Of a stretch of 64,000 nucleotides of DNA, positions 20,001 to 35,558 are shown piece after piece; positions within the stretch are counted from its first letter, which is position 1, and each line of letters begins with the position of its first letter. Source of the DNA: Tubulanus polymorphus (Eukaryota; Nemertea; Palaeonemertea; Tubulaniformes; Tubulanidae); assembly GCF_964204645.1 (NCBI RefSeq), contig NC_134026.1, positions 6,944,001-7,008,000 of the forward strand, read 5' to 3'. Both the position numbers and the translations under genes were made by a program. The notes beneath the pieces are model-generated. The model did not search any database, had not been told where the DNA came from, and saw only the letters and a list, made by a program, of their open reading frames with translations.

Positions 20001-20086
20001 TTATAATTTACACTCATAAGAGCCATCAGTGTTAAAACATTTACCACCAGTTATACACGGAAACCCGCTAGCGCATTCATCTATAT
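20001..20086 (-). CDS. vWA/EGF gene exon 23: truncated last EGF and stop
   Basis: [17 protein letters not shown] continues to YECKL and a TAA at 20001-20003, so only cysteines 1 to 4 of the EGF remain. AATAAA follows 31 nt later, so the short end appears genuine rather than an exon missed by me. Confidence 0.78.
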
Positions 20087-35000: not shown

Positions 35001-35558
35001 TTACAGGGCAGTTTCGAACACGCGTCTGCAGCTGGAAACCAATCGAGCGTAACAACGTAACTGTAAGCGTTACTTCATTTACCCGGTTAATTAAGGCTAT
35101 TATACAACTAGACATTAAAACATTGTATACAGAACTGGGAGCACGAATACGAGTTAAGATTTGACGCTGAAGTCAAACTAACGTATTTAAAACGAACTAA
35201 AAAATCAACCATTCAGGAACTGTGGGTCCTTATGAGTCCTTGGTTTCTTGTTGACCCTAGGACCACAATGAATAAAATATTTTCAATCTGACTCCTCACA
35301 ATGGAACTCGGCCCTGGGCCCATTATAGAATCGAAAGCAGCAATGCGAACCGAGAGATGGTGGAGGTTGGACCATCAATTTGATTCTTGATGAATGCATT
35401 TATCTTTTCATTTTATTATCGATATACTCTCCACGTCTGAGTAAACGCTGTTCTGTAACTACGACAAACATTGTTGTTGTCTGTGACTTACCTGATGAAA
35501 TCTTGATGATGCAACTTATCAGAAGAAAGGAAATCACCCGGCGCCCAGTCGCTGCCAT
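20001..35558 (-). CDS. Secreted vWA/EGF multidomain protein, complete 23-exon gene
   Basis: Exons, in gene order: 35558-35492, 35031-34912, 34442-34320, 33707-33588, 33055-32936, 32315-31764, 31411-31364, 31205-31089, 30048-29497, 28980-28924, 28688-28578, 28032-27667, 27425-27258, 25706-25656, 25415-25308, 24107-23556, 22858-22811, 22705-22598, 22305-22009, 21477-21341, 20926-20812, 20722-20669, 20086-20001. The join is 4077 nt, a multiple of three, with no internal stop, giving 1358 aa. All junctions are phase 1 except the phase 0 junction between exons 20 and 21. Domains: signal peptide 1-22; EGF at 23-183 (four); vWA at 184-367, 423-606, 663-840, 894-1077 and 1130-1312, each followed by a 16-19 residue two-cysteine linker and an EGF. 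The last EGF (1331-1358) stops after its fourth cysteine. There is no transmembrane segment, so a secreted matrix, mucus or adhesive protein is likely. vWA + EGF chains recall matrilins, but this domain order is not one I can name. Confidence 0.88.
20505..20643. mobile_element. Short inverted-repeat element in the last intron of the vWA/EGF gene
   Basis: 139 bp whose ends read GGCTTGTCACGATAGCTGG on each strand, continuing as inverted repeat for about 33 bp (AGTCTAAAATCAA against GGTCTAAAATCAA). Non-coding. A MITE-like or foldback element; I see no clear target-site duplication. Confidence 0.7.
20669..20722 (-). CDS. vWA/EGF gene exon 22: two-cysteine linker 5
   Basis: 54 nt, phase 1-1, [18 protein letters not shown], between acceptor CACGTAG| and donor |GTAGGC. 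Confidence 0.75.
20812..22305 (-). CDS. vWA/EGF gene exons 19-21: vWA domain 5
   Basis: Exon 19 is 22305-22009 (297 nt), exon 20 is 21477-21341 (137 nt, phase 1 in, phase 0 out), exon 21 is 20926-20812 (115 nt, phase 0 in, phase 1 out). Together 549 nt, close to the 552 nt of the undivided copies. DSSTS keeps DxSxS, PETHTAL supplies the Thr, IGSGATTE replaces T-D-G, and the cysteine pair is CKTTDC. Exon 21 ends [13 protein letters not shown], like the last helix of the other copies. A LINE fragment lies in the intron between exons 20 and 21. Confidence 0.78.
20960..21200 (+). mobile_element. LINE reverse-transcriptase fragment
   Basis: The frame from about 20985 reads [12 protein letters not shown] and later [13 protein letters not shown], then in a shifted frame [10 protein letters not shown]. 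These are the A, loop and QGSVL motifs of a non-LTR (CR1/Jockey-like) reverse transcriptase. A frameshift and stops make it dead. It sits antisense in the intron between exons 20 and 21 of the vWA/EGF gene. Confidence 0.7.
21811..21952. repeat. Palindromic repeat of the AAGACC family, copy 1
   Basis: About 140 bp, inverted-repeat in nature: GGTTCCATAATCAGGGCTTT and GACTTAAGAC at the left, TTAAGACC, GGTCTTAAGTCT and ACTATGGAACT at the right. Same family as 45440-45985. Confidence 0.6.
22385..22600. repeat. GTTCCACAGTT repeat, tandem copies
   Basis: Four to five head-to-tail units of about 50 bp, each with CCGTTCCACAGTTGT or a variant and GGGTTTAATTAGACTATGG. Related to the dispersed GAACTGGATCC palindromic family. 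Confidence 0.55.
22598..22705 (-). CDS. vWA/EGF gene exon 18: calcium-binding EGF 8
   Basis: 108 nt, phase 1-1, [17 protein letters not shown] to FGQNNCI. The donor G|GTTAGT stands just before a stop in the intron. Confidence 0.78.
22811..22858 (-). CDS. vWA/EGF gene exon 17: two-cysteine linker 4
   Basis: 48 nt, phase 1-1, [16 protein letters not shown], followed by an EGF beginning DLDEC. Confidence 0.78.
23556..24107 (-). CDS. vWA/EGF gene exon 16: vWA domain 4
   Basis: 552 nt, phase 1-1, 184 codons. The metal motif is DLSDT rather than DxSxS, and [10 protein letters not shown] stands in for T-D-G. Cysteine pair CDNSHC. The donor A|GTAAGT is perfect. The reading frame continues past it in the intron, which I exclude. 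Confidence 0.86.
24560..25098 (+). mobile_element. LINE 3' end remnant
   Basis: A decayed frame reads [17 protein letters not shown], then YIYLRCK, then [20 protein letters not shown]: the zinc-knuckle-like C-x2-C region and tail seen at the C-terminus of many non-LTR retrotransposon polyproteins. It ends in AAAGATTGAATTGAATTG, a short-repeat 3' tail typical of such LINEs. Lies in the intron between exons 15 and 16 of the vWA/EGF gene. Confidence 0.65.
25308..25415 (-). CDS. vWA/EGF gene exon 15: calcium-binding EGF 7
   Basis: 108 nt, phase 1-1, [30 protein letters not shown] (hydroxylation consensus), donor |GTAAGC. Confidence 0.82.
25573..25633 (-). pseudogene. tRNA-Glu pseudogene lacking the anticodon loop
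   Basis: 61 nt matching tRNA-Glu in the acceptor, D-arm (TGGTCTAGTGGTTAGGAT) and T-arm (CCCGGGTTCGATTCCCG), with about 11 nt missing around the anticodon stem-loop. It cannot be a normal tRNA. Compare the intact copies at 34566-34637 and 36401-36472. Confidence 0.8.
25656..25706 (-). CDS. vWA/EGF gene exon 14: two-cysteine linker 3
   Basis: 51 nt, phase 1-1, [17 protein letters not shown]. It lies only about 30 bp from the left arm of the (CA)n element and 22 bp from the tRNA-Glu pseudogene. Confidence 0.75.
25735..27170. repeat. (CA)n microsatellite of 1.3 kb inside an inverted repeat
   Basis: Pure CA repeats run from about 25814 to 27110 (about 648 units) with CATA variants at the left and (TA)n at the right. 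Arms of about 30 bp flank it as inverted repeats: GAAGTTGTTTGAGACC at 25735 and GGTCTCAAACAACTTC ending at 27170. The whole thing lies in the intron between exons 13 and 14 of the vWA/EGF gene. All four long frames through it (Thr-His or Cys-Val repeats) are artefacts. Confidence 0.95.
27258..28032 (-). CDS. vWA/EGF gene exons 12-13: vWA domain 3
   Basis: Exon 12 is 28032-27667 (366 nt) and exon 13 is 27425-27258 (168 nt), 178 codons in all. The intron falls right after [10 protein letters not shown], in the usual T-D-G position. DTSSS keeps the DxSxS motif, and the cysteine pair is CSELRC. The exon 13 donor (G|GTCACC) is weak. Confidence 0.8.
28578..28688 (-). CDS. vWA/EGF gene exon 11: calcium-binding EGF 6
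   Basis: 111 nt, phase 1-1, [18 protein letters not shown] then [12 protein letters not shown] (hydroxylation consensus) and a short C-terminal loop AAQDLKCK. It has an extra cysteine next to the second one. Confidence 0.82.
28924..28980 (-). CDS. vWA/EGF gene exon 10: two-cysteine linker 2
   Basis: 57 nt, phase 1-1, [19 protein letters not shown]. Lys-rich and slightly longer than the other linkers. Confidence 0.75.
   Translation of the reverse strand: MLNANLGIILILKRRKNA
29497..30048 (-). CDS. vWA/EGF gene exon 9: vWA domain 2
   Basis: 552 nt, phase 1-1. The metal site is degenerate: DSSEY instead of DxSxS, no Thr in the second loop (WKGGLAKPH), and VGSGETDD instead of T-D-G. It carries the CNDYSC pair. 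Probably a structural vWA that no longer binds metal. Confidence 0.87.
30478..30545 (-). mobile_element. tRNA-derived SINE fragment
   Basis: The reverse strand reads GCCGCGGTGGAGTCTCGCG, then GGTTCGAATCCCTGCCGAGG and GAGGATGGG. It has a B box and the same CTGCCGAGGGAGGATGGG flank as the right arm of the element at 40451-40575. Located in the intron between exons 8 and 9 of the vWA/EGF gene. Confidence 0.55.
31089..31205 (-). CDS. vWA/EGF gene exon 8: calcium-binding EGF 5
   Basis: 117 nt, phase 1-1. [17 protein letters not shown], then [12 protein letters not shown], which fits the Asn/Asp hydroxylation consensus of calcium-binding EGF domains. Confidence 0.85.
31364..31411 (-). CDS. vWA/EGF gene exon 7: two-cysteine linker 1
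   Basis: 48 nt, phase 1-1, encoding [16 protein letters not shown] between strong splice sites (TTCTACAG| and |GTAAGA). Too short for most gene finders. The next exon begins DIDEC. Confidence 0.8.
31764..32315 (-). CDS. vWA/EGF gene exon 6: vWA domain 1
   Basis: 552 nt (184 codons), phase 1-1, a whole vWA domain in one exon. The metal-site motif DSSRS is intact ([10 protein letters not shown]) and DGTRANS supplies the Thr loop. The usual T-D-G motif is replaced by LGSGETED. It lacks the C-x4-C pair found in the other four. Confidence 0.88.
32687..32758 (+). tRNA. tRNA-Glu: tRNA-Glu (CTC)
   Basis: 72 nt folding as a cloverleaf: acceptor TCCCGTA/TGCGGGA, D-arm with TAGTGG, anticodon stem TCTGG/CCAGG around loop CCCTCAC (anticodon CTC), T-arm CCGGGTTCGATACCCGG. 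TTTT follows at 32764-32767. It lies antisense in intron 5 of the vWA/EGF gene. Confidence 0.9.
32936..33055 (-). CDS. vWA/EGF gene exon 5: calcium-binding EGF 4
   Basis: 120 nt, phase 1-1, [16 protein letters not shown] to GFTGVHCKN. It closes with donor A|GTACGT shortly before a stop in the intron. EGF 2 to 4 are close copies of one another (C-A/V-Q-N-x-P-G-x-G-Y is shared). Confidence 0.8.
33128..33435. repeat. Minisatellite, about four units of 53-79 bp
   Basis: Units share GTGGCAAGTGAGGATCCACC, then GGTGCGCTAGTGT, then CTGCGGCAATAGA and ATTCCACTTGTGG. A further single copy lies at about 49070-49136, and GGATCC-TGGCA fragments at 21690-21725, 29335-29390 and 44685-44720. Confidence 0.65.
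33468..33585. repeat. GCCATTTGGCGG tandem units
   Basis: Three tandem units of about 35-40 bp containing GGCACGCCATTTGG or CCGTCTGGCGGGAT plus GTTGGTGCAG. Next to the exon 4 donor of the vWA/EGF gene. A related stretch is at 44920-44965. Confidence 0.5.
33588..33707 (-). CDS. vWA/EGF gene exon 4: calcium-binding EGF 3
   Basis: 120 nt, phase 1-1, [16 protein letters not shown] to GYTGKRCES. The donor CAG|GTTCGT is weak but is the only one that keeps the frame and the sixth cysteine. The open frame runs on into intronic Pro-Pro-Asn-Gly-Val repeats, which I do not include. Confidence 0.8.
34320..34442 (-). CDS. vWA/EGF gene exon 3: calcium-binding EGF 2
   Basis: 123 nt, phase 1-1. Starts [17 protein letters not shown] and ends YIGTHCEH. 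The donor is G|GTACAT. The DIDEC start marks a calcium-binding EGF. Confidence 0.85.
34566..34637 (+). tRNA. tRNA-Glu: tRNA-Glu (TTC)
   Basis: 72 nt, acceptor TCCCATA/TGTGGGA, anticodon stem CCTGG/CCAGG with loop CTTTCAC (anticodon TTC), T-arm CCGGGTTCGATTCCCGG, followed by a CTTTTTT terminator. Antisense in intron 2 of the vWA/EGF gene. Confidence 0.93.
34912..35031 (-). CDS. vWA/EGF gene exon 2: EGF-like domain 1
   Basis: Symmetric phase 1-1 exon of 120 nt encoding a six-cysteine EGF domain ([13 protein letters not shown], then [14 protein letters not shown]). It lacks the DxDEC calcium-binding start that most of the later ones have. Confidence 0.85.
35492..35558 (-). CDS. vWA/EGF gene exon 1: signal peptide
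   Basis: ATG at 35556-35558 opens [20 protein letters not shown] then SS, a basic n-region followed by a hydrophobic core, a standard secretory signal. The exon ends in phase 1 at TTTCATCAG|GTAAGT, a near-perfect donor. This is what fixes the start of the gene. Confidence 0.85.

Follow-up and report, generated by a model that had tools for sequence, protein, structure and literature searches.

The 64,000-nucleotide window of the nemertean Tubulanus polymorphus genome analysed here (C2:6944001-7008000 of a 267.8-Mb assembly) carries on its minus strand a long chain of exons for von Willebrand factor type A (vWA) and epidermal growth factor (EGF) domains, which raises the question of whether this chain is one complete gene, how its repeated units arose and what a protein built in this manner might do. 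The chain was found to be a single gene, here called W, and its product is probably a secreted, disulfide-rich matrix or adhesive protein in which an EGF stalk precedes five vWA-hairpin-EGF units, with vWA lobes that would act independently of a metal-ion-dependent adhesion site (MIDAS); the gene is one of at least seven that form a family derived from a five-unit ancestor.

An earlier note on this DNA had proposed a complete gene starting with a signal peptide and followed by four EGFs and five units of vWA, linker and EGF, and an independent rebuild, in which exons were joined by domain content and splice site, returned exactly the same numbers: 23 exons from 35558 to 20001, in frame over 4077 nt and encoding 1358 residues, with a single stop at the end of the frame. 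The 22 introns are GT-AG without exception, and all but intron 20 are in phase 1 (21 of 22). Random non-gene stretches with the lengths of the 21 internal exons would be stop-free in one frame with a joint probability of ~5e-24 (the product of 21 rates, each from 2000 draws of non-gene sequence of the same window). The profile search that the earlier note had suggested was carried out for Pfam, and VWA matched the protein in five stretches (expectation value, E, 6.5e-72) and EGF_CA in eight (E 2e-27); the Pfam VWA match and the vWA fold both place the protein in the vWA superfamily. The signal peptide is putative, being read from the in-frame TAG that forms the codon immediately before the ATG and from the hydropathy peak of the protein (an 11-residue stretch), and no second stretch as hydrophobic as the N-terminus was present among the six best 19-residue windows of the protein. 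An AATAAA does lie ~30 nt past the stop, as had been claimed, but constitutes weak support for the gene end because it is expected by chance in ~4% of 40-nt stretches on this strand. Additional units of W within the window were rejected, as a scan of 3377 open frames with profiles from this gene yielded no further vWA, linker or EGF exons of its type that stood out (next best E-values 0.6, 0.023 and 2.3, respectively). On its exon and domain sequence, W is confirmed as a real, complete animal gene.

The repetition within W is less strict than was first described. The vWAs measure 184, 184, 178, 184 and 183 codons, so that the proposed uniform length of 184 applies to just three of the five, while the linkers (16, 19, 17, 16 and 18 codons) stay within the 16-19 that had been given. 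The cassette EGFs, put at about 37 residues, are indeed 39, 37, 36 and 36 residues long in the first four cassettes, but the fifth is a 28-residue half-EGF with four of the six cysteines. Every cassette border is in phase 1, and three exons per cassette are found in cassettes 1, 2 and 4 only, with four in cassette 3 and five in cassette 5, as vWA3 and vWA5 hold extra introns at three different places. A D[ILV][DN]EC start is present in eight of the nine EGFs and CxNx4[FY]xC in five of the nine, these being the cassette EGFs; the EGFs are predicted to be of the calcium-binding type.

A family of genes with a five-unit core

The five vWAs of W are just 20-29% identical to each other in pairwise comparison, the proportion of nonsynonymous differences (pN) is below that of synonymous differences (pS) in every pair of vWAs, EGFs and linkers, and synonymous divergence (dS) between vWAs is at least 1.65 or not computable in 10/10 pairs. 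This low identity coupled with near-saturated synonymous change rules out a recent cassette duplication, and the copies are, as judged from their sequences, ancient. With four vertebrate fragments as outgroup, the five vWAs form one group with support of 99/99, albeit with few outgroups and long branches, and because of this grouping and the phase-1 state of all cassette borders an internal duplication of the vWA-linker-EGF cassette is supported; the serial duplication put forward earlier therefore stands, but its three-exon form applies to the three cassettes named above. Trees of the EGFs and of whole cassettes had long branches and no starred fork, and were not used.

A genome-wide search with Pfam VWA scored 150 candidates, of which 126 matched at E <= 0.001, while vWA5 and vWA2 of W as queries gave 39 matches (66 candidates) and 36 matches (46 candidates), respectively, at nearly the same places. 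Scanning of 17 genome stretches with profiles from W (cut-offs of E <= 1e-4 for vWA, 1e-3 for EGF and 1e-2 for linker), to which one more stretch was added, identified six further genes of the same kind, designated A to F. Each of these sisters contains five vWAs, and in all six an EGF follows the vWA in 5/5 units. A stop within the vWA5 match of sister A proved to be the TAG of a splice acceptor, and 0/35 domain translations contain a stop. Outside the seven genes, the vWA5 query gave weak matches at C1:2031246 (E 4.5e-6), C1:29503034, C9:11765772 and C1:2029659, and the vWA2 query a single match at C9:11765805 (E 0.0075). Another dense run of vWA exons, at C1:29497615-29514069 on the minus strand, is, by sequence search, hardly related to the five-vWA family (one match, E 8.8e-4). 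Among viral contigs there were two pattern matches, neither of which was confirmed. The mollusc-type haemocyanin domain PF14830 had no match in the genome, a result that carries no weight since the control genomes gave none either.

In a tree of the 35 vWA translations of the seven genes (match envelopes with split domains concatenated; the shortest rows are A3 with 119 and E4 with 127 residues), grouping by array position 1-5 requires four changes, the minimum possible, and 0/200 label shuffles were as low. Within each position W, A and B group at 97-100 bootstrap. The vWAs thus group by position and not by gene, and the five-unit array therefore predates the gene duplications, which indicates, on the evidence of these sequences, that the ancestor of the family already carried the five-unit core. 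Linker exons with two cysteines and phase-1 borders were present in 30 of the 33 cassettes for which the gap sequence was covered (five of these being W's own), as compared to 0/300 control stretches of 600 nt. A 31st linker, that of C4, was seen by profile and is directly joined to its EGF, while none was found in the E4 and F3 gaps and two gaps of F lie outside the coverage. Linker length partly tracks position, being 48 nt in 6/7 genes at position 1 and 54 nt in 6/7 at position 5. A pair of cysteines ~5 residues apart is found at positions 2, 3, 4 and 5 in 7/7, 7/7, 6/7 and 7/7 genes (27/28) and in 0/7 at position 1; in the vWA2 model it marks the start of the helix at residues 65-72, and the two cysteines would be expected from this model to form a disulfide.

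The family also shares its ending. In W the fifth cassette EGF has four cysteines, followed by KL and the stop, two residues past the fourth cysteine, and in each of the six sisters a terminal half-EGF starts with D-[IV]-[DN]-E-C and stops one to three residues past the fourth cysteine. The half-EGF is thus a conserved end of the protein rather than damage to an exon, because the same kind of ending occurs in all six sisters. The minus strand from 19995 to 5000 yielded no exon with EGF cysteines 5-6 that would follow the alternative donor GAGT|GTAAAT (0.065 expected per 5 kb), and a continuation of W past its stop was set aside in view of the shared ending.

Proposed function and alternatives

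In the matrix or adhesive reading, the W protein would leave the cell to become part of an extracellular matrix, tube, shell or adhesive, where calcium-stiffened EGFs would hold the five vWA lobes at set spacings and each lobe, without recourse to the MIDAS metal, would use a surface of its own to bind a fixed partner among other matrix proteins or glycans. The N-terminal stalk would set the reach of the molecule and represent its evolvable part, lengthened by EGF exon duplication. Such a mode of action would resemble that of the MIDAS-less vWA arrays of collagen VI, or of the vWA/EGF proteins that occur in the shells of molluscs and in slug glue.

The stalk differs in length between sisters, with four N-terminal EGFs in W, 12 in A and 15 in B, while none was found upstream of C, D, E and F within the 5.8-9.2 kb examined, where long introns could hide some. 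In sister A, EGFs 2-5 are identical in protein and neighbours are 99-100% identical in DNA, in units of 288-289 bp, and neighbours among EGFs 2-9 of sister B share 88-94% of DNA and 95-97% of protein sequence. The ratio pN/pS is 0.05 over 28 pairs of B EGFs 2-9 and 0.13 over 10 pairs of A EGFs 2-6. Owing to this near-identical DNA and the low pN/pS, the stalk EGFs of A and B are taken as recent copies under strong constraint. At C2:2.946-2.948 Mb in sister A, EGF exon and intron copies stand in tandem, 3/5 of them 98-100% identical, and a length polymorphism or an assembly-sensitive array is possible there. A seven-gene family with recent EGF exon copies might also be expected of a secreted recognition protein of innate immunity, the stalk of which expands under diversifying pressure, as opposed to a structural matrix protein; this alternative is unlikely, as the duplicated EGFs are under strong purifying selection and the vWA core retains its position identity.

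The metal ligands of a MIDAS are provided by a DxSxS motif, a T and a D. Across the 35 family vWAs, DxS retains its D in 30/35 and its S in 34/35 (one row has no letters there), while S or T occupies the fifth position of DxSxS in 11/35, and the D of the third motif is S in 28/35, D in 1/35 (A4) and another residue in 6/35, such that D, S, S/T and D occur together in 0/35. In W, the first two places are D and S in all five vWAs, the third is S/Y/S/T/S, and the third-motif D is replaced by S throughout; the aligned column for the T of loop 2 lacks that residue in 5/5, albeit in a loop that aligns poorly. The MIDAS is therefore, as read from the alignment, incomplete in 35/35 vWAs of the family. 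Loss of the MIDAS has a precedent, because most collagen VI vWAs have no conserved MIDAS, according to the portion of the text on these domains (PMC3919171). A metal-dependent adhesion domain like the I-domain of integrins, which would use Mg2+ to bind collagen-like ligands, would account for the presence of integrin alpha-1 and PTMP1 among the best sequence matches and for the D and S that are so widely kept, yet it is improbable in view of the third-motif D, replaced in 34/35 vWAs, and of the complete ligand set found in none. In a fold search the vWA1 model was led by the vWAs of apicomplexan MIC2 and of CMG2, and the vWA2 model by apicomplexan TRAP; these matches are silent on function because the fold is widely shared among vWAs.

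The two-cysteine linkers resemble the hairpin of cysteines 5-6 in an EGF (linker 1 against Pfam cEGF, E 0.01, below its cut-off), and it is conceivable, though a long shot, that the terminal half-EGF with cysteines 1-4 and the linkers are complementary halves of a split EGF, whereby the half would dock on a linker of the next molecule to build a head-to-tail fibre. The fixed five-unit core would determine the period of such a fibre, together with the number of stalk EGFs, which would be tuned through exon duplication. Least credible of all is a decaying or artificial exon chain, that is, a pseudogene or two genes, for although the last EGF is incomplete, the cassettes have diverged and no more than genomic sequence supports the gene model, the 23 exons have no internal stops, all internal borders are splice-compatible, and both the order of the five units and the type of terminal half-EGF are shared by six sisters.

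Several points nevertheless weigh against W as a MIDAS-independent matrix or adhesive protein of a seven-gene family. W is known from its genomic sequence and the sisters were joined by order and strand, not by complementary DNA; F as one gene rests on order, strand and position over a ~93 kb span, the introns of which are only partly covered. Support for whole position groups 1 to 5 is modest (bootstrap/Shimodaira-Hasegawa approximate likelihood ratio test 56/58, 39/45, 80/80, 86/82 and 85/70), and purifying selection was measured in the EGFs of the sisters and not in W, whose cassettes are near saturation. The kept D and S of DxS also count here, and the vWAs may bind some metal, as the loss of the MIDAS is read from an alignment in which loop 2 is poorly placed.

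Comparison with known vWA and EGF proteins

The earlier note could not match the domain order to a named family, and the same was the outcome here in Pfam, PDB, NCBIfam (no match for the N-terminal 422 residues) and open-access papers, in the available portions of which no description of five vWA-EGF units or of a terminal half-EGF was recognised, animal proteomes being outside the scope of the comparison. The features tested place W outside the matrilins, AMACO, Pif/BMSP, collagens and SVEP1. The N-terminal array of collagen VI alpha-3, which had the highest total PDB score, is like W in its run of vWAs and is extracellular, but W has no Gly-X-Y (no run of at least four GXX), and a hairpin and an EGF stand between its successive vWAs. 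Matrilins are, in the section consulted, vWA and EGF mosaics of the extracellular matrix (PMC7013758), and W has both of these domains. They differ from W in having one or two vWAs and a coiled coil, whereas W has five vWAs and nothing after its terminal half-EGF; judged from the domain layout, and not by a coiled-coil program, there is no room for such a module in a chain of vWA, linker and EGF that ends two residues past Cys4. AMACO/VWA2, a matrix protein of the Fraser complex, combines several vWAs with EGFs as well, but is described in the relevant passages as having a cysteine-rich domain beside two EGFs, with disulfides that link the vWA termini (six such cysteines, implying three vWAs) (PMC5774751), in contrast to the five vWAs, eight full EGFs plus a half and internal cysteine pair in units 2-5 of W. 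SVEP1 features, taken from the protein name as Sushi and pentraxin, were absent from W by Pfam at E up to 1.

Among invertebrates, Pif/BMSP and the shell VWAPs of molluscs have up to four tandem vWAs in the shell matrix, as stated in parts of four reports (PMC3374290, PMC5597905, PMC11291548, PMC7747718), one of which counts 164, 162 and 94 VWA proteins in three mollusc genomes (PMC5597905). Pif/BMSP differ in their chitin-binding and laminin G domains, neither of which is found in W by Pfam at E up to 1. For the matrilin-like vWA/EGF proteins of semislug glue, the passages available name vWA and EGF together for adhesive components (PMC11178922), and for Lingula they give vWA and EGF domains for the most abundant shell proteins (PMC4595640); the order of the domains is not stated there and they may belong to separate proteins, so the likeness to W is one of description only. 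The byssal protein PTMP1 of mussels (PDB 4cn8/4cn9/4cnb) is a comparable matrix protein from an invertebrate and was matched in two vWA regions (profile E 6.7e-18), but has no EGF in the match and, per the title of 4cn9, a zinc-occupied MIDAS. Further excerpts mention a coral vWA/TSP protein of different domain order (PMC4890752), mollusc VWA/chitin-binding proteins (PMC5379566) and, for limpet mucus, EGF and vWF type D, with 'vwa' occurring 0 times in the text at hand (PMC7333891).

Invertebrate matrices contain many vWA/EGF proteins, and their classification is poor. The family described here has a clear signature, in which the vWA units number exactly five, the MIDAS is incomplete, cysteine pairs are confined to units 2-5 and the chain closes, in 7/7 genes, with a half-EGF; this signature allows relatives in other animals to be recognised and separated from matrilins, AMACO and Pif/BMSP. 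In this one family a position-frozen core stands beside a stalk that grows by near-identical exon copies, such that the constrained and the free part are directly testable.

Coordinates and surroundings

Table 1. Exons of W and associated features (positions in the window), and sister genes in the genome (pLDDT, predicted local distance difference test)
Feature	Position	Strand	Basis
Exon 1: start codon, putative signal peptide	35492..35558	-	in-frame TAG before ATG; hydropathy peak residues 8-18
Exon 2: EGF1	34912..35031	-	splice joins, Pfam
Exon 3: EGF2, DIDEC type	34320..34442	-	splice joins, Pfam, motif
Exon 4: EGF3, DIDEC type	33588..33707	-	splice joins, Pfam, motif
Exon 5: EGF4, DIDEC type	32936..33055	-	splice joins, Pfam, motif
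Exon 6: vWA1, 184 codons, without cysteine pair	31764..32315	-	Pfam VWA E 4.4e-21 (cassette 1); model pLDDT 74.5
Exon 7: linker 1, two-cysteine hairpin	31364..31411	-	splice joins, linker scan
Exon 8: EGF5	31089..31205	-	splice joins, Pfam, motif
Exon 9: vWA2, 184 codons	29497..30048	-	Pfam VWA E 2.6e-12 (cassette 2); model pLDDT 87.5
Exon 10: linker 2	28924..28980	-	splice joins, linker scan
Exon 11: EGF6	28578..28688	-	splice joins, Pfam, motif
Exon 12: vWA3 part 1	27667..28032	-	Pfam VWA E 3.4e-12 (cassette 3)
Exon 13: vWA3 part 2	27258..27425	-	splice joins, profile scan
Exon 14: linker 3	25656..25706	-	splice joins, linker scan
Exon 15: EGF7	25308..25415	-	splice joins, Pfam, motif
Exon 16: vWA4, 184 codons	23556..24107	-	Pfam VWA E 7e-10 (cassette 4)
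Exon 17: linker 4, acceptor at 22858	22811..22858	-	splice joins, linker scan
Exon 18: EGF8	22598..22705	-	motif; no Pfam EGF match when cassette 4 scanned alone
Exon 19: vWA5 part 1	22009..22305	-	Pfam VWA E 6.4e-14 (cassette 5)
Exon 20: vWA5 part 2; donor of the only non-phase-1 intron	21341..21477	-	splice joins, profile scan
Exon 21: vWA5 part 3	20812..20926	-	splice joins, profile scan
Exon 22: linker 5	20669..20722	-	splice joins, linker scan
Exon 23: terminal half-EGF, four cysteines, end YECKL, stop codon	20001..20086	-	same kind of ending in six sister genes
AATAAA, possible polyadenylation signal	19965..19970	-	weak, ~4% by chance in 40 nt
Sister gene A	C2:2.94 Mb	-	profile scan
Sister gene B	C6:6.33 Mb	+	profile scan
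Sister gene C	C2:15.96 Mb	+	profile scan
Sister gene D	C2:24.96 Mb	-	profile scan
Sister gene E	C11:6.27 Mb	+	profile scan
Sister gene F	C2:16.53-16.62 Mb, ~93 kb	-	profile scan

Intron 13 of W contains a nearly pure (CA)n array of 1.3 kb (25770-27110). Three tRNA-Glu genes or copies are located at 32687-32759, 34566-34638 and 36400-36472, and the same exact 17-mer recurs at 25609-25625; three of these four places are in introns of W and one is ~0.8 kb upstream, and the copies may represent a tRNA-derived repeat. The divergent neighbour of W (36834-38063, plus strand) has a PAN-like domain just under the cut-off (E 8e-4) and, by eye, a C-type-lectin-like stretch for which there was no Pfam family match. 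About 1.8 kb downstream of W, at 17865-18162 on the minus strand, lies a full-length match to metazoan signal recognition particle RNA (263.3 bits, with the gathering score at 70; model positions 1-299 of 299). Further out are a minus-strand open frame of 386 codons (14521-15681) with a weak match to rhodopsin-type G-protein-coupled receptors (E 1.2e-6, below the curated cut-off) and a plus-strand exon with a homeodomain (9368-9988; Pfam E 1.5e-22), which we take to be of the NK1 class from its look. Reverse transcriptase remnants of a retroelement occupy 48122-48916 on the plus strand, with RVT_1 matching the first of two open frames (E 9.4e-14).

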